DNA from: an uncultured Desulfobacterium sp.
GTDB lineage: Bacteria; Desulfobacterota; Desulfobacteria; Desulfobacterales; Desulfobacteraceae
Assembly (NCBI GenBank): GCA_937124525.1
Contig: CAKZLA010000409.1
Span: forward strand, 1 to 24,746
Direction of reading: 5' to 3'
DNA length: 24,746 bases
Part shown: piece after piece, positions 3,496-16,669 of the stretch
Numbering within the stretch: the first letter of the stretch is position 1
Layout: each line of letters opens with the position of its first letter
Position numbers and translations under genes: made by a program
Notes under the pieces: model-generated
The model's database searches: none
What the model was told of the DNA's origin: nothing
Seen by the model: the letters and a program-made list of their open reading frames with translations, nothing else

Positions 3496-4848
3496 TTAAC
3501 CGCCGGTCACATTTAAAACCTGACCTGTAATGTATTTAGCCCCATCCCCAATAAGAAAAAGAATAGCGGCAGTAATATCAAAGACTTCCCCCAAACGTCC
3601 GGCAGGTATTTTTTCGTCAAGGTTATTAAGCTCTTTTTCAATATTTTGTGGCCGATCAGACCTGATGTAACCCGGAACAATACAGTTTACATTGATTCCG
3701 TTCGCGGCCATTGACCTTGACATGGCCTTGCAAAGGGCTATCGCTCCAGCCTTGGCGGTCTCATAACGAATCAAATTTGTATGTCGATCCCAGCTCCATG
3801 GCGCCAAATAGATGATGCGACCTGATCTATGCTGGGCCATCTGAGTCTTAAAATATGTTGCCAATTCATGGGCACATCGCAAATTTTCTTCAAACAGATC
3901 GTAAGTTCGCATGCTGAGTTTTTCAAGGGGATACTCTGTGGTCCCGATTCCCAAGTCATGAACATATATATCAATGGGACCGTACTCTTTCTCAATGGCT
4001 TGAATTTGATCCGAAGTTAAAGGCTCTTGCTGTTCAATCGTGCAGGTGGGAAGGCAGGTGGATTGGTTTTCCCGATTTTTTGAAGGATTCCGACTGTCCA
4101 CATGAACAATCAATTTAAGACCTTGTGCCAAAAACATGCTGCATATAGCTTGGCCTAATACGGTGCCGCCGTTAACCAAAAGAACAGTCTTTCCTATATG
4201 CGAATCAGACGGAATGGGAAGCTCGGGAAGATCTTGTTCTCCGGCTAATAAACCGTTAAATACCAGCTCAAGAATCAACCCTTCTGCATCTAACTGGTTG
4301 GCATGCCCCCGGAGATCCCAACGCTTTATGGTCCAACTATCAATCATTGATTTGATCAAATTGGCCAACAGCCGCACATTGCAGTTTTTGAACTGCCCTT
4401 TCGCGATACACTCATTTATAACGATTTCAAATTTTTCAAGATGCGCCCGCTCTTTTTCCAAAAGACGTCTGAGAAAATCGCCCTTAAGGATATGGCTTTC
4501 CTGGTAAATCAACAATAAAGTATCTGCCCATTGATCCATCAGGTTAAACTCTCCTCGAACCATGCGACGAAGCTTGTCAATGGGATCTTGTATGTTTTCA
4601 AGGCTGTTGTTAAGAATTTCCATAGCAGAACTGGCCAAAAAATCATGGATAAGAAAAAATATATCTTCTTTACTCCCGACGTAATCATAGATATTGCCGT
4701 GGCTTAAGCCAGCTTCTTCTGCAAGTTCCTTGAGGGTGGTTTTATGATATCCGTTTTTTGAAAAAAGTTTTATCCCTGCCATAATTATCTGTTGACGACG
4801 TTTTTTCACCAAAGCTTTATTTTTTACCGTCGTTGGTATCTCTCGCAT
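3496..4848 (-). CDS. TetR regulator fused to a short-chain dehydrogenase-like domain
   Basis: This is a 450-residue two-domain protein. Residues 15-65 form a clear TetR DNA-binding domain (helix-turn-helix T-L-K-E-L-A-E-E-A-G-L-S-H-G-N-I-Y), followed by a TetR ligand-binding-type helical region to about 205. Residues 219-450 form a Rossmann short-chain dehydrogenase (SDR) domain ending Y-I-T-G-Q-V-L-N-V-T-G-G. The YxxxK pair is present (Y362, K366). However, the glycine motif is reduced (N-G-G-T-V-L-G at 226-232), the usual NNAG is HDLG (297-300), and the catalytic serine position reads A-P. The domain may therefore sense a nucleotide or acyl ligand rather than catalyse. One continuous frame with no break supports a true fusion. 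The likely targets are its own promoter and the abfD/TRAP genes downstream (inference). Confidence 0.85.
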   Translation of the reverse strand: MREIPTTVKNKALVKKRRQQIIMAGIKLFSKNGYHKTTLKELAEEAGLSHGNIYDYVGSKEDIFFLIHDFLASSAMEILNNSLENIQDPIDKLRRMVRGEFNLMDQWADTLLLIYQESHILKGDFLRRLLEKERAHLEKFEIVINECIAKGQFKNCNVRLLANLIKSMIDSWTIKRWDLRGHANQLDAEGLILELVFNGLLAGEQDLPELPIPSDSHIGKTVLLVNGGTVLGQAICSMFLAQGLKLIVHVDSRNPSKNRENQSTCLPTCTIEQQEPLTSDQIQAIEKEYGPIDIYVHDLGIGTTEYPLEKLSMRTYDLFEENLRCAHELATYFKTQMAQHRSGRIIYLAPWSWDRHTNLIRYETAKAGAIALCKAMSRSMAANGINVNCIVPGYIRSDRPQNIEKELNNLDEKIPAGRLGEVFDITAAILFLIGDGAKYITGQVLNVTGG

Positions 4849-5952: not shown

Positions 5953-6847
5953 ATGTTTGACGCCCGAGCCATTGCCGTGGTGGGGGCCTCTGCCGACCCT
6001 TCCAAATATGGTTTCATGACCCTGGACTGTATCATCAAAGGGGGCTTTCAAGGCAAGATCTATCCCATTAATCCCAAGGGGGGCGAAATTCTGGGTCTCC
6101 AAGCCTATACCTCACTGATGGTACTGCCGGAAGTGCCCGATGTGGCGGTTATTCTGGTGCCGGTGCAATTGGTACCAGGTGATCCGGGATGCCGGTGAAA
6201 AAGGAATCGTGATCCTAAAATCCGGCAGATCCACTGCCGGGGAAAAATCAGTGGCCTCCCACACCGCCTCCCTGGCCGGAGCCCACAAGGTATTCCATGC
6301 CGCCTGCCGCCAGTATGGCGCCATCCCCGTGGACAATCTCCAGGATCTCTACGATTATGGCAAATTGCTGTCCACCATGGATATCCCCCAAGGCAACCGC
6401 CTGCTGATCCTCTCCTCCTCCGGGGGTATCGGGGTTATTGCCGTGGATGAAGCAGAAACTCTGGGCATTATTGAGGGAATGCTGGTCTGTCACCAGGCAG
6501 AAGAAGGGGTGGAGCTCATTGTGGGCGCCATGGACGATCCGGTATTCGGCCCCACCTTCATGGTGGGCATGGGCGGCATTTTTGCAGAAATCATGCAGGA
6601 CACAGCCTTTAGGGTTGCCCCCCTAACCCCGGGCCATGCCCGGGAGATGCTCATGGAACTCAAGGGCTATCCCTTGCTCGCAGGTGCCCGGGGGACCGCC
6701 CCCTGTGATGTGAATGCCGTGGTGGACCTCATCATGAACCTGTCTTGTCTGGCCATGGAAAACCCGGACATCCGGGAACTGGATCTCAATCCGGTGCGGG
6801 TCTATCAAAAGGGGCTCCTGGCTTTGGATGTCCGCATTATGCGCTGA
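5953..6847 (+). pseudogene. Decayed NDP-forming acyl-CoA synthetase
   Basis: Pieces of one ADP/NDP-forming acyl-CoA (acetyl-CoA) synthetase are recognisable in order, but in two frames. First is the CoA-binding Rossmann part (A-V-V-G-A-S-A-D-P-S-K-Y-G near the start) up to about 6175. Then, after a frame change, the succinyl-CoA-ligase-like part with L-K-S-G-R-S and S-H-T-A-S-L-A-G. Then, after a second jump near 6470, the C-terminal ATP-grasp part (D-P-V-F-G-P, G-G-I-F-A-E, L-D-L-N-P-V-R-V). The family is about 700 residues; only about 310 codons remain. Two internal deletions plus a frameshift explain this. The remaining text is otherwise well conserved, so the decay is fairly recent. The gene is convergent with qhpE. 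Confidence 0.85.
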
Positions 6848-6869: not shown

Positions 6870-7559
6870 TTACACAATTATTGTACGAGATTCCCTGGCC
6901 AATTGTTTTTTTATCCACCACAGATCTTTTTGAGGGTATTTTTGAACCAATGTTGAAACCCTGGCCGTAACATGGGCCACAGCAAAACTGTGGCCTCGAA
7001 AATTTTGTTCCTGGGGCAACCCGGGGATGGGTCTTGGCCAGCCGTGTGCGCCAAATTCAATTTTGGAATCCGGATGAAACACCATTTGACCCCAGTTGCA
7101 GTCATGGTTCCAGTACACACCGATAACGGTTTGAAAAAAAGCCGGATAGGTTCTGTCTTGTGGCCCCTTTGCCGATGCCAGAATGATAATATTTTTATCA
7201 CAGGCCATCTGACATAAACGATCTAACTCATGGACAAAGATTTCATTTTCCACACCAAGACTTAAGTGGATTATCCTGAACTTATTTTCCATGGCCCAGG
7301 CCAACGCCTCAATCAAAAAAGATGCCGGTGCCCCCAGCTCTCGTTTAAATATTTTAACGGCATACAGGCCAGCAAGGGGAACTGATTGCCTGATAATCCC
7401 TGAAATTGCCGTACCATGTCCGATTTCATCCATAAAATCGTCAGTTTTTTTAATCTCTCCCCTTGCATCCAAAACATACCCGTGCCCTCCGGATACCCCT
7501 TGCACATGGGGATGCATTGGGTTGACACCACTGTCAATAATGGCAATTTCAGGAGTCAT
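6870..7559 (-). CDS. qhpE: Subtilisin-like protease of the QHNDH gamma subunit leader
   Basis: A compact S8 (subtilase) protein of 229 residues with no signal peptide, so cytoplasmic. The triad is visible: D9 (I-I-D-S-G), H48 (G-H-G-T) and S191 (G-H-S-F-A-V-A-H-V). In Paracoccus denitrificans QhpE removes the leader of the gamma subunit after the thioether bonds are made. The size, lack of export signal and place in the locus fit that job. The usual oxyanion Asn (A-A-G-N) reads A-S-A-K-G here (128-132), so the pocket may differ. Its start overlaps the end of qhpF by 11 bases, which suggests coupled translation. It is the last gene of the cluster. Confidence 0.85.
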   Translation of the reverse strand: MTPEIAIIDSGVNPMHPHVQGVSGGHGYVLDARGEIKKTDDFMDEIGHGTAISGIIRQSVPLAGLYAVKIFKRELGAPASFLIEALAWAMENKFRIIHLSLGVENEIFVHELDRLCQMACDKNIIILASAKGPQDRTYPAFFQTVIGVYWNHDCNWGQMVFHPDSKIEFGAHGWPRPIPGLPQEQNFRGHSFAVAHVTARVSTLVQKYPQKDLWWIKKQLARESRTIIV

Positions 7560-9315
7560 TGGGCAATGCCTTCACAGGCCCCTGGTATAAGACCCCATGT
7601 TCGCCCAGAACGATCATTTTATGGGCATTTGCAATGGAGGTTTTACTATGACTGACCAGAAGGATGGTTTTATTCTTCATCAATTCATTGAGCGTCTGTT
7701 TGATTTTATTTTCCACCTTTACATCCAGAAAGGCGGTGGCCTCGTCCAGAATGAGTACCTTTGGATTTAAAAGTATGGCCCTGGCAATGGAAAGCCGCTG
7801 CTTCTGACCTCCGGAAAGCCGTGTTCCCCTGTCTCCGATAAGGGTATCATACCCCTCTGGAAGCGAATTGATAAATTCCTCCAATTGGGCCGCCTTTGCA
7901 GCAGATATTATTTCTTCAATCCCAGCGTCGGGCTTAAAAAACCGTATATTGTCCCGTATGGAGGCATGAAAAAGAAAAGTTTGCTGGGAAACCATGGCGA
8001 CCTTATTCCGAAACCATTGCTTGTCCAATTGCCGGATGTCCCTGCCGGCCCAGGTAATGGTTCCTGAATCCGGATTAAAGAGTTTTAATAAAAGATGACA
8101 AATCGTTGTTTTCCCAACCCCGCTTTCCCCTGCCACTGCGATAATTTTTCCATGGGGAATGGTAAAGGAAATATTTTTTAATACAGGAGTCTCTTTATCA
8201 TAGGAAAAATTGACTCCATTCAAGGCAATGTCCTGGCTCATTTCAGCCTCACTCAGGGTCAGATCACCTGTTTCATCAAAACAGGGGGGAATCTCCAGGA
8301 TTTCTCTAACCCTTTTGATGGCCACTTTGGATTTTTGCACTGCAAGAACACCGTCCAACAAGCCCTGTAAAGGACCAAAAACCCTTCCCTGGTATACTGA
8401 AAATGCCACCAGGGTCCCGATGGTCAACTCTCCTTGAAGAACCTGCCATCCACCAAACCCAAAAACGATGAGGGTATTGACAATGGAAAACACCGTATTT
8501 ACTGATCCGGAAACGGCACCAAGGATTTGATATTTTAAAAGATATTTTAAAATTTTCGACTGCTTTTTTTTCAATTTTTCGTTTTCTGTTTTTTCCGCAC
8601 CAAATGCCCGGATAATGGCCGTATTGGAAAGGGATTCAAACAGAAAATGGGCAATATCTGCATTACTTTTGGCAACATCATTGGAAAGATCAAACAACCT
8701 TGGTTTAAGCCGATGGACAATGAACAGGGCAACGGGGAGAAACAAAATGCTCATCAAAGCCATTTGCCAATTCAACCAGAACAAAATCGCCCCTGTGATC
8801 AAAAAAGTTAAACTATCAAACAGGTATTTCGGGAAAATATCGGTTACCAACCCCTGAATGTCTGCCATATCCGATGCAATTCTGGAATAGATGTCCCCAA
8901 TTTTATTTCTGGAGAAAAAGATCAGCGGGATTTTCTGGAGATGTTCAAACAGATCTTCCCTCATTGAAAATAAAATATTTGCAGAATATCGGGTATAAAT
9001 ATAATTGTTGACAACCCTGATGGCAAAACTGAAAAGAAGCAGAACAATCAGCGCAAATAAAACGGGGAAAAGATATTGTGACTGTTTTTCAAGGAACACC
9101 CGGTCTATGAGAATTTTTGCAAAATAGGGCTGCACCAGCCCAAGGCCTGTGCTGATGATACTCAAAAACAAAGAGATGATTAATATCCGCTGATGGGGCA
9201 CAAGATAGGCCGTTAAATATCTAATCTGCTCCCAAAAGGATTTTTCAGAGGTTCCTAAAATAGCACATGTATCCTGAGTTGCAGTATTCAGGGGTCTGGC
9301 GAAGGTTTCTTGCAT
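7549..9315 (-). CDS. qhpF: ABC exporter of the QHNDH gamma subunit
   Basis: A 588-residue half-transporter. The N-terminal membrane domain (about 40-330) has six hydrophobic spans; the C-terminal ATPase has Walker A G-E-S-G-V-G-K-T (396-403), signature L-S-G-G-Q (500-504) and Walker B V-L-I-L-D-E-A (520-526). It resembles lipid/peptide exporters of the MsbA/ABCB type and probably acts as a homodimer. In the known qhp systems QhpF carries the cross-linked gamma subunit to the periplasm, because QhpC has no Sec signal; the same holds for qhpC here. No C39 peptidase domain is present, fitting the use of a separate protease (qhpE). The start at 9315 overlaps the upstream U32 gene by 71 bases and has an AGGA site about 9 bases away. 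Confidence 0.85.
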   Translation of the reverse strand: MQETFARPLNTATQDTCAILGTSEKSFWEQIRYLTAYLVPHQRILIISLFLSIISTGLGLVQPYFAKILIDRVFLEKQSQYLFPVLFALIVLLLFSFAIRVVNNYIYTRYSANILFSMREDLFEHLQKIPLIFFSRNKIGDIYSRIASDMADIQGLVTDIFPKYLFDSLTFLITGAILFWLNWQMALMSILFLPVALFIVHRLKPRLFDLSNDVAKSNADIAHFLFESLSNTAIIRAFGAEKTENEKLKKKQSKILKYLLKYQILGAVSGSVNTVFSIVNTLIVFGFGGWQVLQGELTIGTLVAFSVYQGRVFGPLQGLLDGVLAVQKSKVAIKRVREILEIPPCFDETGDLTLSEAEMSQDIALNGVNFSYDKETPVLKNISFTIPHGKIIAVAGESGVGKTTICHLLLKLFNPDSGTITWAGRDIRQLDKQWFRNKVAMVSQQTFLFHASIRDNIRFFKPDAGIEEIISAAKAAQLEEFINSLPEGYDTLIGDRGTRLSGGQKQRLSIARAILLNPKVLILDEATAFLDVKVENKIKQTLNELMKNKTILLVSHSKTSIANAHKMIVLGEHGVLYQGPVKALPNDS

Positions 9316-10243
9316 ATGTTTTAATCCTGTCCCGGTTTTTATGACGTCTGGTCTTATCCCGCAGGGCTTTTACCAGCTGCAGACTTCCCATTTTTCTGTG
9401 AAAGGATGCTTCCCGGCCCACAATTTTAACAGCGGTTACCCCCCAGTCCCTGAAGTGACCAAACCAGCACAGGCTGCAGGGACCATTGGGAAGGCCGTCT
9501 TTTTGAAAACTTGAACCACAATTATTTTGAAACCACAGATACTCTTTAAAATGAGACATGCGGGCATCCAGTTTTTCAAATTTGCCTCTATTTTCATCCT
9601 CTGATCCCGGAGATCCCATGGGGCTGACCTCCCAGTCCGTAAGACAAAAAGCACCCAGAGTATGGCTGGTCTGGCAGAACCCTTCTTCAAAATAACAGCC
9701 ATCATTCAGGGCAAACACTTCAAACTCCATTTTATCTGAACCTGATTTAACAATGGACTTAATTTCAGGCAGGGTTAACTGCCGGGGCAGAATAATTCTG
9801 TTGACACCAAGGGAACGGTAAAAATCAATGGAATGGGAGTTAAAACAACTGCCAAGGCTGCTCAGATGAATCCGGATGGGCAATGCTTTTTGTGAAAGCG
9901 CCATTAACAGATTTAGATCTGAGACAATCAGGGCATGCACTCCGATTTTTACCAATTGTGCACACAAATTTAAAATATAGGGAATTGAGCTTTCAGGATA
10001 AAAGGAGGCATTCAAGGTAATACTCACCTTGACATCACGGCTGCGGGCGGCAGCAATGATGGTTTCCAAGTCTTCTAATGAGCTTATATTGGCCTGATCC
10101 GGGCATCTTCGGTTCATCCATAAATGCGATCCGAAAAGATCATCCCATTCCCGGGTCCTCAGACCACAATAAAGCTCATCAGCACCGTTATGTAAAAGCA
10201 TCTCAAGCTCAGACAGGGAACTGATGGGGGTAATGATCTTCAT
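9245..10243 (-). CDS. U32-family Fe-S protein, UbiU-like; candidate anaerobic Trp hydroxylase subunit
   Basis: The product has 332 residues; Escherichia coli UbiU has 331. The barrel start (L-H-N-G-A-D-E-L-Y-C-G-L), the L-S-S-L region and V-K-I-V-G-R-E at 272-278 match the peptidase U32/UbiU type. The [4Fe-4S] cysteines of UbiU (C169, C176, C193, C232) have counterparts: C183 and C190 with the same 7-residue step, C200, and C256 or C259. Extra cysteines occur at 133, 242, 321 and 327. UbiU works with UbiV to hydroxylate a ubiquinone precursor without O2, using prephenate as oxygen donor. No other ubiquinone genes are near. The gene lies between UbiV-like and qhpF genes in the QHNDH cluster, so I infer a role in CTQ formation. 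A peptidase role is possible, but qhpE already covers cleavage. Confidence 0.8.
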   Translation of the reverse strand: MKIITPISSLSELEMLLHNGADELYCGLRTREWDDLFGSHLWMNRRCPDQANISSLEDLETIIAAARSRDVKVSITLNASFYPESSIPYILNLCAQLVKIGVHALIVSDLNLLMALSQKALPIRIHLSSLGSCFNSHSIDFYRSLGVNRIILPRQLTLPEIKSIVKSGSDKMEFEVFALNDGCYFEEGFCQTSHTLGAFCLTDWEVSPMGSPGSEDENRGKFEKLDARMSHFKEYLWFQNNCGSSFQKDGLPNGPCSLCWFGHFRDWGVTAVKIVGREASFHRKMGSLQLVKALRDKTRRHKNRDRIKTYARNLRQTPEYCNSGYMCYFRNL

Positions 10244-11112
10244 ATGAGCGCCCCTTGATACACCATGCGAAATCCATGGGACCTGGCTTTTTTAAATATG
10301 CCCTTCATCATGGAAAGGGTGTATAAATAAAAGATGGTATTCCCGTTCTGGAACAATTCCAGAGCACCGTCGGGATGTTTTAATTTAAGGCCATGGGAAG
10401 TGCAGGGGGAGGAACAACCATTATTGAACTTGAAACGGGCATTGGGATTGTTCACCAATCCGGCCGTAAAACAGGCCCGTCCCGTTGTGACATATCCCAG
10501 GGGAAAATAGACAGATGTTTTAAAATCCGCCACCCCAAGCGTTTCAGGGTCTGCATGGGGCAAAAGATCCTGCTCAAAGCGATGAATATCAAGATTTTCA
10601 GCCAGGGTTTGCATCCCCTTTCCCTTAAATGAACAATGGTTAAGAAATTCTTTTGCTTTATTGGACATCCCCATTTCTTTGGATTCCAGGCGGGGATCCT
10701 TAAACCCTTTATTAAACAGTCGGCCCATGGACAATTGAAAATCCGGATAGTTTTTTTTGAGATAAAACAACACCCCCAGATCATTGACCACAACCTCAGC
10801 CGAGGGATTCCATTGGTACAGGCAGTCAAAGAGTTCTGTACAAGCCACAATTGCCTGATCTGTCAAAACCGGGGTTAAAAGCGTGAGGGACAACCCCTTT
10901 TTATCGGCAAACCCCAAAAACCCGGAAAGTTCATGATGGGTGGGCAAGCGAGCCGGACAGAATTCATCCCCCACATAGATATGTTCGGGGTTGGAAAAAA
11001 CCTCTTCCAGGCCATGGGCACTTAGCTCCGGATAAACAGAGGCAAACCTTGGGAATCCTTTACTGGGAAAGTCATCCCCATTTTTATTTACCAGATGCCA
11101 GGCCACTTCCAT
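10240..11112 (-). CDS. U32-family Fe-S protein, UbiV-like; candidate anaerobic Trp hydroxylase subunit
   Basis: The product has 290 residues; E. coli UbiV has 292. All four UbiV cluster cysteines (C39, C180, C193, C197) have counterparts in the same local settings: C52 in Y-V-G-D-E-F-C (UbiV Y-L-G-E-A-V-C), C214 in G-R-A-C-F-T-A (UbiV S-A-R-C-F-T-A), and C233/C237 in G-C-S-S-P-C with the same 4-residue step. This identifies it as the UbiV-type half of a UbiU/UbiV-like pair. It overlaps the UbiU-like gene by four bases (ATGA), so the two are almost surely made together. It follows the cytochrome gene by 22 bp. UbiV family members have no protease site; they form the [4Fe-4S] hydroxylase heterodimer. 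The substrate here is inferred from context to be the gamma subunit tryptophan. Confidence 0.8.
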   Translation of the reverse strand: MEVAWHLVNKNGDDFPSKGFPRFASVYPELSAHGLEEVFSNPEHIYVGDEFCPARLPTHHELSGFLGFADKKGLSLTLLTPVLTDQAIVACTELFDCLYQWNPSAEVVVNDLGVLFYLKKNYPDFQLSMGRLFNKGFKDPRLESKEMGMSNKAKEFLNHCSFKGKGMQTLAENLDIHRFEQDLLPHADPETLGVADFKTSVYFPLGYVTTGRACFTAGLVNNPNARFKFNNGCSSPCTSHGLKLKHPDGALELFQNGNTIFYLYTLSMMKGIFKKARSHGFRMVYQGALI

Positions 11113-11134
11113 TATTTTTCCTCTCCTTTGGGAC

Positions 11135-11689
11135 TCAACCGGCCTGTCCCACCTGGGCCGTCACTTTTTCATAGAACTTCTGGCCGTTGCGCATCTCATG
11201 ATTATGACAATCTTTGCACGGCTGGGATGCGATGTTTTTGATCAATTTATTATGAATTTTAACCTGATCGCTTTGTTGGTGATTTTCCACATTTTTACAG
11301 CTGAAACACCTGCTGTTGGGAACATGGCTCCAATACCCGGGTTCCTTTCCCTCTTCCAGAAACAGGGGTTCTTCTTTGGGCTTGATGGGCTCATTGGAGT
11401 CTCGATCAAAGTGCTCCACCAAGAATCTGACGGCAGATTTATTCATATGCATCCAACCGTCAAACCCAGTGTCAAAATGGCATTTTGCACAATTACTATG
11501 GTTTTTGGCTGTACCTGAGGTCTTCCATTTTTCAATGGGTGTTTTCATTTCATGGCAGACAACACAGGTTTTATCTTGAAAGTATATGACGGATAGTTCA
11601 TGGGAGGCCAGTCCGATGACAGGCAATAAAATCACAACAACGATCAAGGCCATTGTTTTATTCAGTTTAAAATATTTTTTAATTTCCAT
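11135..11689 (-). CDS. NapC/NrfH-type membrane-anchored tetraheme cytochrome c
   Basis: The product has 184 residues with one N-terminal membrane anchor (about 12-30) and four haem-binding motifs: C42-V-V-C-H46, C67-A-K-C-H71, C128-F-S-C-K132 and C158-K-D-C-H162. Anchor, size and four haems fit the NapC/NrfH family, which passes electrons between the menaquinone pool and periplasmic redox partners. The third motif ends in Lys instead of His, as in the active-site haem of NrfA. In this operon it is a good candidate to link amine dehydrogenase electrons to the membrane or to periplasmic cytochromes. It heads the second half of the cluster, after the terminator that follows qhpB, so it probably has its own promoter in the 11690-11980 gap. 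Confidence 0.85.
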   Translation of the reverse strand: MEIKKYFKLNKTMALIVVVILLPVIGLASHELSVIYFQDKTCVVCHEMKTPIEKWKTSGTAKNHSNCAKCHFDTGFDGWMHMNKSAVRFLVEHFDRDSNEPIKPKEEPLFLEEGKEPGYWSHVPNSRCFSCKNVENHQQSDQVKIHNKLIKNIASQPCKDCHNHEMRNGQKFYEKVTAQVGQAG

Positions 11690-11789
11690 GGGTAGATCTC
11701 ATTCTCATATTGGTATCTGATCCCGCTATCCGGGATCTATTATGGGCCAGTTTCAAGAATAGGAGCCTCTTTTACATGATGATCCAATT

Positions 11790-11891
11790 GTAAGTCCTCA
11801 ATAATCCGGGGAGATCAAGCCTGCTTACCCTTTAAACGCCGGATGCTATTCAAAAGGATTTTTTGAATACCCAGACTTATTGAAAAGTTAC
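11790..11891. mobile_element. MITE M copy 2
   Basis: A 102-bp copy of the element at 2803-2905, with ends GTAAGTCCTCAATAA (11790-11804) and TTATTGAAAAGTTAC (11877-11891). The 8-base ATCCAATT flanks it exactly (11782-11789 and 11892-11899) as a target-site duplication. The 439-bp gap between the cytochrome gene and qhpB (11690-12128) holds this element, the terminator at 11988-12049, and otherwise only the presumed promoter of the second transcription unit. Confidence 0.88.
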
Positions 11892-11979
11892 ATCCAATTT
11901 TCTAACAACCCTGTGGGGTAATCCCATCAGCGCTTGGTTTTTTTAGCAGGGGCTATGCTTTTAACAATTCCCTGGCATA

Positions 11980-12049
11980 AAAAAAATCCGCAATGACCTA
12001 AGCTTTTCCCCTCCCAGCCATTGTCAGGATAAAAAACGGGTCATCGCGG
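11980..12049 (-). terminator. Probable terminator after qhpB
   Basis: On the minus strand an 11-bp stem (12039-12049 with 11988-11998, one mismatch, core CCGCGATGACC) closes a 40-base loop and is followed by a run of T (bases 11980-11986 on the plus strand are A). It lies about 80 bp downstream of the qhpB stop codon. The large loop makes it less certain than a classical terminator. Confidence 0.5.
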
Positions 12050-12128
12050 TTTAAATGCTAAAGTTCGAACTAAAATCCCTTGCTCCATTGATTTCGCACC
12101 CCGGGGCCTTTCCCAGGGGACACGTGCC

Positions 12129-13190
12129 CTATTTTTTTGTCAGTCTAATGCTTGCCACCCCATCGGCCATGAGTGGAATGACGCTCAACAATTCAAGGGA
12201 ATCGGCATCATACACACTCATATCCGGGCCACCAGGGCCCACATAAACTTTCTTACCATCCGAGGTAATGGCAACGGTATAGTTGGTACCGGTTTTCAGA
12301 GGAACCGCCTTGATGGTGTCTCCGGTGGAACGGTCCACCTTGATCAATTCATCCATAACCCCATAGATATATTTCTTATCCGGTGACAAGATGCTGGAAT
12401 AGGCAAACCAAACGTCCTTTCCCCGAAGATCATTCAATTTACCGGTATTTTTATCTATGATAAAATACCCAAGTCCCTTTGCATCATAATAGGGATTGAC
12501 AAAAATACCATGATCTCCCGGGCTCCCGGGCTGCCAATTCGCCAGGCAGTTCCTCATATCCCCGGGCTTTTTGGTGTTTAAAAACCCCAGGAGCTGTTCT
12601 TTCTTTCCTGTTTTAAGATTGAACTTGTCAATATCCTGACCCACCAGAATTATATGATCTGAATCATTTCTAAGGGTTACCGGCTGGGTATAACTGCTTG
12701 GGATGGGATAATTTTTTACTATTTTTCTGGCCTGAATATCGTAGACCACCAGCTGGTCGGGCAGTACATTGAGTTTAGGAATGTTTTGTTTTTTCTTTAC
12801 AATGGAACAGCACAGATAAAGCTTTTTTCCGTCATTGGAAACACTTGTTCCAAATATGGACACCTTACTCAGCTCGGAAGAAAAGGAATAGGTGTCCACC
12901 AATGTGTTGGTTGTGGTATCGATGGCATATATCGAGTGGACCGCATTTAAATAGTACCGTTTTCCGTCTGCAGAATAGGCTGTGTTAATAATAAAATCAT
13001 TATACCGGATTGTTTTAATGATGGTATCCGTGTCACAGTCAATCACCTGGAGGCCATTGTTCACAACGGCATAAATATAGTCTTTAGCTGCCATTGCCTG
13101 GGAGGTAAAGAGTAGCAGGATGCTGACAATGATGGAAGTCAATGCCAATTTGTTTTTATTCAGCGCCATTTTTTTTGTATTCATCCCCAT
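12129..13190 (-). CDS. qhpB: QHNDH beta subunit (beta-propeller)
   Basis: The product has 353 residues with an N-terminal signal peptide (hydrophobic stretch about 16-34, cleavage near A-M-A-A-K), then repeated blades of the YVTN/amine dehydrogenase type, such as Y-I-Y-A-V-V-N-N-G-L-Q-V-I-D and L-V-V-Y-D-I-Q-A-R-K-I. In QHNDH the beta subunit is a seven-bladed propeller that packs against the gamma subunit and helps form the active-site pocket in the periplasm. It follows qhpC by 16 bp in the order A-D-C-B, the same order as in Paracoccus. The start at 13190 has an AAGGAG site 9 bases upstream; an in-frame ATG two codons later is also possible. Confidence 0.88.
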   Translation of the reverse strand: MGMNTKKMALNKNKLALTSIIVSILLLFTSQAMAAKDYIYAVVNNGLQVIDCDTDTIIKTIRYNDFIINTAYSADGKRYYLNAVHSIYAIDTTTNTLVDTYSFSSELSKVSIFGTSVSNDGKKLYLCCSIVKKKQNIPKLNVLPDQLVVYDIQARKIVKNYPIPSSYTQPVTLRNDSDHIILVGQDIDKFNLKTGKKEQLLGFLNTKKPGDMRNCLANWQPGSPGDHGIFVNPYYDAKGLGYFIIDKNTGKLNDLRGKDVWFAYSSILSPDKKYIYGVMDELIKVDRSTGDTIKAVPLKTGTNYTVAITSDGKKVYVGPGGPDMSVYDADSLELLSVIPLMADGVASIRLTKK

Positions 13191-13206
13191 GGGTCTTATC
13201 TCCTTT

Positions 13207-13530
13207 TTATCGTTTGATCACAAAATTCAAATTTCTCCAATCCTTCTCAATGGCCTGGCACTGATTTTGATAATGTGGAAAATTGGTCACATTATCCGGG
13301 GTCTGGGCGGGCCACCAGCAGGTTCCGGAACACGCTGAAAAATCCCTGGCGCTGGACAGGCAATTGCCCATGGGGGTCTCAGGTCGCGGGTTTGTTTCCC
13401 ACCCCGTATCAAAAATAGTCGTACAACCAATGGGCATGCCCGTCATGATATTGTCATCTGCCATACCCTTGACCTCATGCTCAATTTTTTTTGCCTTTTT
13501 ATTAACGGCTTTCAGCCCTTTCTTTTTCAT
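13207..13530 (-). CDS. qhpC: QHNDH gamma subunit precursor (carries CTQ)
   Basis: The product has 107 residues: a basic, lysine-rich leader of about 28-30 residues and a cysteine-rich core. With an offset of 30, every cross-linked residue known from the Paracoccus denitrificans gamma subunit is present: C36 and E45 (C7-E16), C57 and D63 (C27-D33), C71 and D79 (C41-D49), and C67 with W73 (C37-W43, the cysteine tryptophylquinone). The conserved C-W-W-P-A-Q and E-K-D-W-R-N-L segments are also there. An extra C91 has no obvious partner. It has no Sec signal, fitting export by qhpF after modification in the cytoplasm by qhpD and leader removal by qhpE. A GAGGA site lies 8 bases before the ATG. Confidence 0.95.
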   Translation of the reverse strand: MKKKGLKAVNKKAKKIEHEVKGMADDNIMTGMPIGCTTIFDTGWETNPRPETPMGNCLSSARDFSACSGTCWWPAQTPDNVTNFPHYQNQCQAIEKDWRNLNFVIKR

Positions 13531-13571
13531 TTATATATCCTCATTTGCTTTCATTACAATTTATTTATGTG

Positions 13572-15023
13572 TCAAACCGGGTGCTGAAATAGCGGCTCAT
13601 GCCCCCTGACCATGGAAAGCTTGTCCAGAAAATCAGGGATTTCCGTCATCAATTGGCCATACACGTTAAGCCCGATTTCAATCCATGCTTTAATCCACTG
13701 ACAATAGTGAAGGTTGGGTGACAAGAGATCGCCTTCCCTGATTTTTGCCTCGTGATAACACCCCCCGGCACAGATGGAGGCGGCCCAACATCCCTTGCAG
13801 GCCTCTTTATTATCCAGTCCTGCTTCACGCCTGAATATTTCAAGCTTTTTTTGATCAGCTCCAGCAAAGACATCTCCCATCATAGCAGAGTCTTCACCGG
13901 TCAATCTCTGGCACAGAAAAAGACCTCCTTCAGGATCAACGGAAAACATGCCGATTCCCGCACCGCAGGGATAATGTTTCACTTCCCCCTCATGGATGGT
14001 AACCAGCAGATCCACCAGATTGGTAAATCCCAGGAATTGACCTTTTCGGGCCATCCGGACAAAGGCCTCAGACAGTTTTTGAAACTGTTCAAGTAAACGT
14101 TCCATCTGTCGGGCATCCAGCTGAAAATCAGAGGCATTGCTCGTGACCGGTGCAAATCCAACCTCGGTAAACCCCAGATCCAGAAGATGATAAAGGGTAC
14201 TTTCAATATCCTCGATGTCCTTTACCAGGGTGACCCTTGCCACAACGGGTTTGGGGGGCCTGGAGTCAAGAAAGGCCCGGACTTTTGGCTCAATGATGTC
14301 ATAGGAGGGAGAATTGTCCGGAAATCGTCTGAAACGATCATGCTGTGCTTTATTCCCATCCAGACTGATGGTGGTTCCAATCCTGCGGTCATTCAGAAAA
14401 GAGATGATCTTGGGATTCAGCAATGATCCATTGGTCGTAATGGCATAGTCGATTTTCTTATCTGAGCGTGACGCGTTCTCATCTGCATAGTCGACGATTT
14501 TTGAAATAAGTTTATAATTTAGTAACGGTTCTCCTCCGAAAAAAACCAACACCAGATCTTTGAGCGTACCGGACATCTCTATCAAAAAATCCACGGCTTT
14601 TTTCGCCACAATTAACGACATAGGCAATGGAGCGGAAAGTGGAATGATCCCGTCTTCAAAACCGTGGTAGCAATAATGGCAGCCCAGGTTGCAAGCCTGT
14701 GTCACATGCAGAACCAGTGTCTTTATAGGAATGGGCCTTGTCGGTTGTGCCGTGGGGGTCGCCCCCCCATTTTCAGGCACAGTGTGGGGGACAAAAATAC
14801 GATTTTTTGTAAGCGTATTCCAATGGGCTTTTTTATCCTCAATGGTTCCGTTTAAACTGGAATAAAATTGTTTTTCTGTAAAACACCCCTTCACCAGGCC
14901 ATGGTCCAGAACCGCCTGTATTTCAGAATCAATTTCAAAAACAGTGCCCATCTGTGTCAGAAAAATAAATGCATTTCCGTTGGCCTGGAACCGTTTATGG
15001 TCTGCTATTTTAACCACTTCCAT
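13572..15023 (-). CDS. qhpD: Radical SAM/SPASM enzyme forming gamma-subunit thioether bonds
   Basis: The product has 483 residues. The radical SAM cluster motif is C111-N-L-G-C115-H-Y-C118. The C-terminal SPASM region is rich in cysteine (C-G-A-G-I-G, F-L-C-Q-R, A-C-K-G-C-W-A-A-S-I-C-A-G-G-C) and should hold two more [4Fe-4S] clusters. QhpD makes the three Cys-to-Asp/Glu thioether bonds in QhpC in the cytoplasm. Residues 1-90 are likely the peptide-recognition part. Its start is 8 bp after the qhpA stop and its ribosome binding site AGGA overlaps that stop; qhpC follows by 41 bp. Identity is supported by both motif and neighbours. Confidence 0.93.
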   Translation of the reverse strand: MEVVKIADHKRFQANGNAFIFLTQMGTVFEIDSEIQAVLDHGLVKGCFTEKQFYSSLNGTIEDKKAHWNTLTKNRIFVPHTVPENGGATPTAQPTRPIPIKTLVLHVTQACNLGCHYCYHGFEDGIIPLSAPLPMSLIVAKKAVDFLIEMSGTLKDLVLVFFGGEPLLNYKLISKIVDYADENASRSDKKIDYAITTNGSLLNPKIISFLNDRRIGTTISLDGNKAQHDRFRRFPDNSPSYDIIEPKVRAFLDSRPPKPVVARVTLVKDIEDIESTLYHLLDLGFTEVGFAPVTSNASDFQLDARQMERLLEQFQKLSEAFVRMARKGQFLGFTNLVDLLVTIHEGEVKHYPCGAGIGMFSVDPEGGLFLCQRLTGEDSAMMGDVFAGADQKKLEIFRREAGLDNKEACKGCWAASICAGGCYHEAKIREGDLLSPNLHYCQWIKAWIEIGLNVYGQLMTEIPDFLDKLSMVRGHEPLFQHPV

Positions 15024-15031
15024 CCGGCATC

Positions 15032-16669
15032 CTATTTCAAATGGGTTATAAAATCAGGAACGGTCACTGCCAGCCGGACCCTGTCCTTGAGCATTTTACC
15101 CTGATCTTCATACTCTGCGGTAACAGCGATGAGGCCAACACCTTCGCGGTTCTGTTTTCTGGTCTTTATGGGACCATAGGTGGTAACAGGAGTATAAAGT
15201 CCGTTGGATATGGATGTATTCAGGTATTGCAGATCATCATCGTCTTCCCGGGTTTTTTCTTCTTCCAACGCCCATTTGGCATTGATCGGATCCAGAACCA
15301 GGTCATCTTCTGTTCCTTGTTGACCATCTTTGCCAAAATAAATTCCCCGGGCCACAAATTGAACTCCCTGGGGGGGATAGGCAGCTCCGCTGCTGACCCT
15401 GGCCCTTCCGATCCGGGGCGAAATGCTTATAGCATCTATCTTGTCAAAAATTTTAAGTCCCTTAAATTGAAGTCCCTTCACACTGACCGTAGCCAGCCCG
15501 ATCTTTGCCCCCGCAGCCACGGTCACACGGCAGACAATCCCGGAAGAATTACTTTTCAATATCTTTGTAATTGCAATACTGGGATCAGAAAATTTAATAT
15601 CATCCGTTGAAATGTTGTCAAAAAGCCCCACACCCACCATGGTGAAAGTTTGTTCTTCATCCAGAAGCACTCTCAATGACTGGGGAAAAGCAGCTATTAT
15701 CTTTGGGGACCCCGAGGACTTATAAAACGCCTCATTGCCGTATGCGTTGGAATCCTGGACAACCGTCCACCATTTTCCGGCAAATCCCATGGTATCGACA
15801 TCCAGATCAAAAACACCTTCAACTCTTCCGGTAAGGGGGGTGGGTGCCATGGCATATCGCAAATGATATTCACTGAAAAGAGTGCCTTCTCCTGTGGTGG
15901 AGATGGTAAAACCGCTTTGATATTGGACCGTTTTTTCTATTAAATATTCATCTTCCCCTTTGGCAGGGTTGGGAGAAACGCTATAGGTTCCATGGTAATA
16001 ACCCATACCGGGCTGGTATCCGGCCACCGTCCACGATCCTGTCAAGTCCTGGTCTTTTCTGTTCTTGATCCAGTCTTTGTACTCCTGGGTATCAAAGGCA
16101 AAACGCCCTGCCAGGTGTTCATTCAGGGCCTTTGACTCCTTTTTCCAGTCCATTTCACGCATCTGGGGAACCACCGTGGGATAATATCCCAAATGAAGGT
16201 TGCGGATATCCTCCCATTGGTCCTGGACCATTCTATGGGATGCAATTTTACCATAGGTGTGACATCTCACACAGGCCGTATAAATTCTGACGTCCAGATC
16301 ATTCTTAGGAATTTCTCTGTATTGACTGTTTTCATCACTGAAAATATAAGCGATTTCCCTGGATTCTTTGGGGGTAAGGCAGAGTGTTTTACCCAATTCC
16401 TTTACCACAGGGTAGAAATCTTCATCGTCCATCTGGGCGCTGTTCAGGCGAATCATTCGATCCACAACCACTTTCCACTCTTCCGTGCTCTTTCTGGTCC
16501 CTTCAATCACTTCCAGGCGCCCCTGGGGATCGGGCTTATGACAAGCCGCACATTTTTGTCTGACAATGGAATTATCCCCGAAAAGGACATCTCCATAGGC
16601 CATGGACCCTGTAAACCAACAGATGCCCAATAAAATAAAAATCATACTCAACGGACTTAATCTTCTCAT
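15032..16669 (-). CDS. qhpA: QHNDH alpha subunit, diheme cytochrome c
   Basis: The product has 545 residues with a signal peptide (about 1-26, A-Y-G/D) and two haem c motifs near the N-terminus, C40-A-A-C-H44 and C133-V-R-C-H137. The C-terminal two thirds are beta-rich, as in the later domains of the QHNDH alpha subunit. The two haems take electrons from CTQ after oxidation of a primary amine to aldehyde and ammonia, and pass them to another cytochrome in the periplasm. It is the first gene of the qhpADCB unit; AGGA lies shortly before the ATG. The 620-bp region upstream (16670-17289) carries the 128-bp inverted-repeat element at 17150-17277 and presumably the promoter. No AraC-type regulator (qhpR) is in the window. 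Confidence 0.93.
   Translation of the reverse strand: MRRLSPLSMIFILLGICWFTGSMAYGDVLFGDNSIVRQKCAACHKPDPQGRLEVIEGTRKSTEEWKVVVDRMIRLNSAQMDDEDFYPVVKELGKTLCLTPKESREIAYIFSDENSQYREIPKNDLDVRIYTACVRCHTYGKIASHRMVQDQWEDIRNLHLGYYPTVVPQMREMDWKKESKALNEHLAGRFAFDTQEYKDWIKNRKDQDLTGSWTVAGYQPGMGYYHGTYSVSPNPAKGEDEYLIEKTVQYQSGFTISTTGEGTLFSEYHLRYAMAPTPLTGRVEGVFDLDVDTMGFAGKWWTVVQDSNAYGNEAFYKSSGSPKIIAAFPQSLRVLLDEEQTFTMVGVGLFDNISTDDIKFSDPSIAITKILKSNSSGIVCRVTVAAGAKIGLATVSVKGLQFKGLKIFDKIDAISISPRIGRARVSSGAAYPPQGVQFVARGIYFGKDGQQGTEDDLVLDPINAKWALEEEKTREDDDDLQYLNTSISNGLYTPVTTYGPIKTRKQNREGVGLIAVTAEYEDQGKMLKDRVRLAVTVPDFITHLK

Follow-up and report, generated by a model that had tools for sequence, protein, structure and literature searches.

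Maturation of quinohaemoprotein amine dehydrogenase (QHNDH), whose gamma subunit QhpC carries the cofactor cysteine tryptophylquinone (CTQ), has been described for an O2-using system. Thioethers are formed there by QhpD, and QhpG, which draws both oxygens from O2, dihydroxylates Trp43; QhpE then removes the leader and QhpF exports the subunit (PMC7876137). Because QhpG takes both CTQ oxygens from O2, bacteria which lack QhpG but keep the rest of the QHNDH system need another way to oxygenate the tryptophan. Here we describe a QHNDH locus within a stretch of 24,746 nucleotides (the window) of an uncultured Desulfobacterium sp. (contig CAKZLA010000409.1, assembly GCA_937124525.1). It includes two adjacent genes on the minus strand, V (10240-11112, 290 aa), coding for a UbiV-like partner, and U (9245-10243, 332 aa), coding for a U32-family partner. 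We consider it likely that U and V form an O2-independent hydroxylase which replaces QhpG in CTQ formation and oxygenates Trp73 of QhpC, so that the locus supplies a candidate for an O2-free oxygenation step.

The closest described counterpart of this pair is UbiU-UbiV of E. coli: two small U32-type proteins of similar lengths, encoded by adjacent genes, each with a set of cluster cysteines, which V matches in all four columns and U in three. UbiU and UbiV each bind a [4Fe-4S] cluster (PMC6747719) and hydroxylate an aromatic ring using an oxygen source other than O2 (PMC10470549). A 2024 review lists ubiquinone precursors and RNA bases as the targets of characterised U32 oxidases, gives prephenate as the donor for ubiquinone and reports prephenate dependence for the U32 RNA hydroxylases RlhA and TrhP (PMC11574389). 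In the step proposed for it the pair would resemble QhpG, which dihydroxylates the CTQ-precursor Trp in the crosslinked QhpC (PMC7876137); however, QhpG is a flavoprotein using O2, and no sequence relation between QhpG and U/V was found. LodB/GoxB and MauG are convergent tryptophylquinone-forming enzymes serving other proteins, but they are flavin or di-haem enzymes acting on mono-hydroxylated Trp (PMC7876137). Among the papers listed by our literature searches, which covered open-access texts, none reports a U32 pair in QHNDH or tryptophylquinone maturation. QHNDHs of Aromatoleum aromaticum EbN1 are reported, in a 2019 study by Schmitt and co-workers, to be matured during growth without O2.

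The link between U/V and the qhp genes extends well beyond the window. When GTDB contigs were scanned with an alignment of 46 V rows, 22 loci were obtained, in which the window genes were then placed by tblastn. A ubiquinone-pathway context was not found around the pair; instead, qhp genes lie on the V contig in 18 of the 22 loci (L005-L018, L020-L023). Locus L019 is a 3.1-kb contig carrying V and U alone, and L024-L026 (Omnitrophota and Elusimicrobia by title) contain a distant V-U pair but lack qhp genes. Among 395 genomes of one phylum QhpC is above the cut-off in eight. With a U alignment these eight and G014, the genome of L019, score at least 287 bits, the next genome reaching 243.5 bits; 228 of the 395 have some U match, other U32 proteins being common. 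The U alignment contains sequences of G041 and G363, which favours those two genomes in this search. In the phylum of G005 (locus title Poribacteria) one genome out of three has QhpC.

Within 340 genomes of one class, a draw which overlaps the 395 in genomes and is not independent of it, QhpC is above the cut-off in 14 (a fifteenth, G534, has 21 bits) and V scores at least 296 bits in 14, with 13 genomes common to both sets. The two mismatches are cut loci. G616 has qhpC but no V, with a run of N inside qhpB and with U, qhpF and qhpE likewise missing from the 19.9 kb fetched, while the 4.6-kb contig of G004 (L008) carries qhpB, the cytochrome gene, V, U and qhpF and ends before the expected qhpC. 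Weaker V matches occur in six further genomes of the class, and three of these, scoring 176-186 bits, lack QhpC. Of 23 genomes in which QhpC has a match of any strength, V matches 21 (partially and at a contig end in G219), the misses being G616 and G534. The association of U/V with qhp is not chance. Many of these genomes are metagenome-assembled, and their anaerobic lifestyle is taken from record titles (e.g., Desulfobacteraceae, Desulforhabdus) and general knowledge.

QhpG has no match in the window (best E-value 0.48). Cupriavidus QhpG has no match at 1e-4 in the 22 V loci and none at 1e-3 in 36 fetched loci, and the curated QhpG model (cut-off 240 bits) is above its cut-off in none of the relatives' genomes searched (0/21 and 0/14, together 0/35). 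Both V and qhp genes are present in 29 of these 35, the exceptions being G014, G019-G021, G534 and G616. Weak matches to the QhpG model occur in every searched genome and in 14/14 control genomes, as is to be expected of a flavoprotein superfamily. As a positive control, the model is above its cut-off in 3/3 qhp plasmids, and among 26 QhpC-carrying plasmid records a tblastn search with QhpG at 1e-15 hits 25, mostly with 31-36% identity. The remaining plasmid, from Novosphingobium, carries two hits of the QhpG model, a partial one of 50.6 bits at a distance of about 2 kb from qhpC and one of 280 bits elsewhere. QhpG matches were also listed on four plasmid records without a QhpC match, including an Azoarcus KH32C plasmid with no qhp genes annotated nearby. 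None of the 26 plasmids with QhpC matches V, whose single weak plasmid hit, in Roseburia, is outside this set. Two outcomes which the earlier note had raised against its own proposal, U32 pairs occurring at random in such loci and a qhpG always kept elsewhere in the genome, were therefore not what we observed, the second in the relatives' genomes. Its statement that the window has no flavin monooxygenase gene holds for QhpG and needs qualification otherwise, as a flavoprotein-type gene of the HpaB family (1211-2782) lies 4 kb away. The product reaches 146.7 bits with the monooxygenase model, whose cut-off is 480.2, and by its motifs we take it to be closer to 4-hydroxybutyryl-CoA dehydratase. 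It was dropped as a QhpG substitute, having no match at 1e-5 in the 36 fetched loci.

Assignment of the QhpG step to U/V is the most economical reading, since their characterised relatives hydroxylate without O2 and QhpG is the missing part. An unlikely alternative is that U and V assist maturation in another way, as a chaperone of QhpD or its Fe-S electron donor, and that the tryptophan is oxygenated by an unrecognised enzyme from another part of the genome, e.g., a diverged flavoprotein. Both proteins are rich in conserved cysteines, their genes adjoin qhpF and, in L023, qhpD, and flavoproteins scoring below the QhpG threshold are present in these genomes. However, aerobic-type QhpD loci such as those of the 26 plasmids do without U/V, so QhpD as such is independent of the pair; moreover, the component absent from the U/V loci is exactly QhpG, and the function known for relatives of the pair is hydroxylation.

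The presumed substrate is intact. The qhpC gene (13207-13530, minus strand) codes for the gamma subunit precursor (NF037958, 128.4 bits, above the cut-off of 50). Residues C36, E45, C57, D63, C67, C71, W72, W73 and D79 of the window QhpC map to the thioether and CTQ positions of the solved gamma chains (1jju_C, 1jmx_G), so that all nine positions are present; their pairing into three thioethers and CTQ we take to be the usual one. The presumed hydroxylation target, Trp73 (codon at 13312-13314, minus strand), aligns with Trp43 in the mature chain of the solved structures. All but one of the nine positions are invariant in 30 QhpC from the fetched qhp loci, some of them near copies, and W73 is found in 30/30. 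As the CTQ residues are kept, the tryptophan must still acquire two oxygens by some route. The variable position, C67, is the cysteine of CTQ; it is replaced by Thr in one QhpC, that of L077 (5704-6015), a locus in which U/V, both tryptophans and the thioether-forming residues are retained. This protein may contain a tryptophan quinone lacking the Cys bond.

Genes of the system are split in the bin G018 (a single 8.9-Mb bin, purity not given, with one V match). Locus L023 (20.7 kb) has the order D-V-U-F-E without A, B or C, and A-C-B-cytochrome is the order in L075 (19.9 kb) and L076 (an 8-kb contig starting inside A), where D, V, U and E are missing. U and V group with the maturation enzymes and the cytochrome groups with the structural genes; U and V are therefore maturation genes. 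Distances between U sequences and between V sequences track those of QhpD (r 0.93 and 0.95 over the window and 16 loci; none of 1000 permutations reached these values), and the other qhp genes correlate comparably (0.76 to 0.97), as would be expected for a single operon.

The cytochrome mentioned is a multihaem NapC/NrfH-like protein (11135-11689, minus strand; PF03264, 28.4 bits), a conserved member of the locus which the earlier note did not remark on. It is kept beside qhpB in Desulfobacteria-type loci, and in most of these it also adjoins V. One might suppose that it acts like MauG, oxidising the tryptophan with oxygen taken from water, and that U/V have a different task. This seems improbable, as the cytochrome gene travels with A-C-B in G018, apart from D-V-U-F-E, and is without a match at 1e-3 in five divergent loci which do have U and V (L070, L072, L073, L074 and L077). 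The third haem motif is CXXCK in the window and in 19 of 23 relatives and CXXCH in the remaining four.

U and V themselves are of the U32 type to a different extent. U matches PF01136 with 108.1 bits (Pfam cut-off 22.4) and aligns with UbiU with an hhalign probability of 98.7, but it scores just 89.8 bits against the UbiU equivalog model (cut-off 440). V has no Pfam or NCBIfam match at 1e-3, falls below the PF01136 cut-off and gives no UbiV-type hit. C52, C214, C233 and C237 of V are present in 120/120 aligned rows and align, in all four columns, with C39, C180, C193 and C197 of E. coli UbiV, in a CXnCX18CX3C arrangement as compared to CXnCX12CX3C in UbiV. In U, C183, C190, C242, C256, C259 and C321 are present in 99/99 rows and C200 and C327 in 97/99. 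Three columns (C183, C190 and C242) match C169, C176 and C232 of UbiU; C200 is near UbiU C193 but off column, the spacing being CX6CX9CX41C in U and CX6CX16CX38C in UbiU. The E. coli residues aligned here, C39, C180, C193 and C197 in UbiV and C169, C176, C193 and C232 in UbiU, are the proven [4Fe-4S] ligands (PMC6747719). The match of cluster cysteines claimed earlier thus holds for four columns in V and three in U, with the claim not having mentioned four further conserved U cysteines which UbiU lacks. A second cysteine set far downstream (C572-C614) is also found in E. coli RlhA, which shares the U32 domain with U; RlhA and TrhP differ from the pair in being longer, acting on RNA and occupying separate tree branches.

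Confident TIM-barrel models were obtained for both proteins (mean pLDDT, a per-residue model confidence, 89.4 for V and 87.6 for U), although U residues 185-196 beside the cluster cysteines are below 50. Both models match the solved U32 structure 5D88; other TIM barrels (CutC, pyruvate kinase) tie in Z-score, so the fold search decides little. U shares 80% identity with one protein and 76% with another, named from Desulfobacula toluolica, and the nearest relative of V has 64%.

In the U tree, ten qhp-linked sequences form one clade (support 100/99), with which eight U from other pairs group (98/98). U is placed outside the UbiU/TrhP/RlhA group in two trees, with support of 93/90 and 90/87, neither of which is strong. 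Together with the extra U cysteines and the barely detectable likeness of V to UbiV, this does not fit the idea that the pair is UbiU/UbiV proper. Judged by sequence, U and V are best described as a separate family of U32 pairs, not as UbiU/UbiV orthologues, with sister pairs in other gene clusters; unlike UbiU-UbiV, the window pair resides in a qhp locus instead of a ubiquinone one. We think that it would work like UbiU/UbiV without being UbiU/UbiV. The earlier claim that the pair replaces QhpG should be modified accordingly: the pair does occupy qhp loci without QhpG, and its linkage is not random, but it is a U32 pair of another kind.

As UbiU/UbiV work on ubiquinone precursors and sister pairs occur in other clusters, e.g., next to acyl-CoA metabolism genes in L146-L148, the pair could be imagined to act on the quinone pool or another small molecule and to be linked with qhp by shared regulation. 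This is very improbable: the qhp-linked U form a clade of their own which tracks qhp across divergent lineages, and within G018 the pair accompanies the maturation genes only. That U and V are peptidases processing QhpC, as the family name alone would suggest, deserves practically no credence, since the leader protease QhpE is present in the loci whose contigs extend far enough (exceptions are contig ends or gaps) and the cysteine sets are of the Fe-S type.

Sister pairs were found in several contexts. U/V pairs 28-31% identical to that of the window are located in L146 (5493-7329), L147 (6315-8152) and L148 (7855-9692). In L146, the only one of the three where gene content was read, the cluster includes an acyl-CoA dehydratase activase, subunits of the benzoyl-CoA-reductase/2-hydroxyacyl-CoA-dehydratase type, a flavoprotein and a B12 acyl-CoA mutase; the U/V of these three loci are a possible hydroxylase of a small CoA-bound substrate. 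The Omnitrophota pairs are located at 8844-10735 in L024, by eye among several radical-SAM-like frames, and at 8860-10735 in L025; no qhpC was found there. Likewise, no qhpC was found in L149, where a pair (7179-9055) has in its vicinity a radical SAM frame sharing 23.5% identity with QhpD. U-like proteins at 130-243 bits are also encoded by about thirty QhpC-less genomes of the phylum (G333, G407, G313 and G351 among them), several of which have two copies. With somewhat more reserve than for the QhpG step itself, we would expect U32 pairs to be a modular O2-independent hydroxylase for diverse substrates in anaerobes. The qhp clade would be the first to act on a protein, dihydroxylating the QhpC tryptophan with an organic donor and two or three Fe-S clusters, while the hydroxylation of other targets would fall to the sister pairs in the radical-SAM and acyl-CoA clusters.

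We propose the following sequence of events. QhpD would first make the thioethers. U and V, each with a [4Fe-4S] cluster and U perhaps with one more, would pair as a heterodimer and would then add hydroxyls at C7 and C6 of the indole, the oxygen presumably coming from an organic donor (prephenate in the studied U32 oxidases). QhpE would next remove the leader and QhpF export the subunit, with the last oxidation and the formation of the Cys-Trp bond taking place in the periplasm. In the mature enzyme, amine electrons may leave via the haems of QhpA to the multihaem cytochrome, a likely QHNDH electron acceptor. If this is correct, the U32 family gains a protein substrate, the first such target known to us, and the crosslinked QhpC becomes a small, defined substrate for U32 chemistry. 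It would also account for CTQ enzyme production in sulfate reducers, giving anaerobes a tryptophylquinone route of their own.

Several points weigh against the hydroxylase assignment. The putative role of U/V is deduced from sequence, gene context and models. Likeness between V and UbiV is weak (hhalign probability 2.7 and 13.6, with 0.45 in a reversed control), and the higher value was obtained with 117 of the best 120 of 4407 matches to E. coli UbiV, close enterobacterial relatives as far as they are named. The ten qhp-linked V do not resolve as one clade, and the UbiV placement is flagged as a long-branch join. G616 has qhpC without V, albeit in a locus broken by an N run, and U/V pairs without qhp exist (L024-L026, L146-L149). 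Flavoproteins below the QhpG threshold reach 104.9 bits (cut-off 240) in these genomes, so a divergent oxygenase is possible. The absence of QhpG refers to the window and, beyond it, to the genomes of relatives, and Pseudomonadota were surveyed through plasmids only.

The whole locus is encoded by the minus strand, in the order qhpA, qhpD, qhpC, qhpB, cytochrome, V, U, qhpF, qhpE from 16669 to 6870. The set of six qhp genes and two U32-type genes listed in the earlier note was confirmed at the stated coordinates, and so was the tight coupling of V, U and qhpF: V and U overlap by 4 bp, an overlap possible in 21 of 27 loci, and U overlaps the longest qhpF frame by 71 bp. The alpha subunit gene qhpA (dihaem; 15032-16669) scores 297.9 bits with TIGR03908, above its cut-off of 274.35, and matches PF09098-PF09100 and PF14930; alpha and gamma models thus both pass their cut-offs. 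For three other genes the curated models give the best hit but stay below the cut-off: qhpD, radical SAM thioether maturase (13572-15023; TIGR03906, 411.2 bits, cut-off 453), qhpB, beta subunit (12129-13190; TIGR03907, 116.3 bits, cut-off 223.2), and qhpE, subtilisin-like leader protease (6870-7559; NF049966, 149.2 bits, cut-off 165). The names QhpD, QhpB and QhpE therefore rest on gene order as well. The putative gamma subunit exporter gene qhpF (7549-9315, its true start being possibly downstream of 9315) has the profile identity of a generic ABC exporter (PF00664, PF00005) and a conserved position after U.

Outside the shared gene set, L126 has a frame of about 300 aa (11983-12888), outer-membrane-like by eye, between qhpD and qhpC, and a similar gap of nearly 1 kb exists in L128 and L129; the window has none. 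Two further genes of the window were also noted. One, at 3496-4848, is a single 450-aa frame in which a TetR-type regulator is fused to a short-chain dehydrogenase. The other, at 5953-6847, resembles the gene of an ADP-forming acyl-CoA synthetase. It is spread over two overlapping frames, of which the longer one has some of the expected domains, and may be either a remnant or the result of a frame error.

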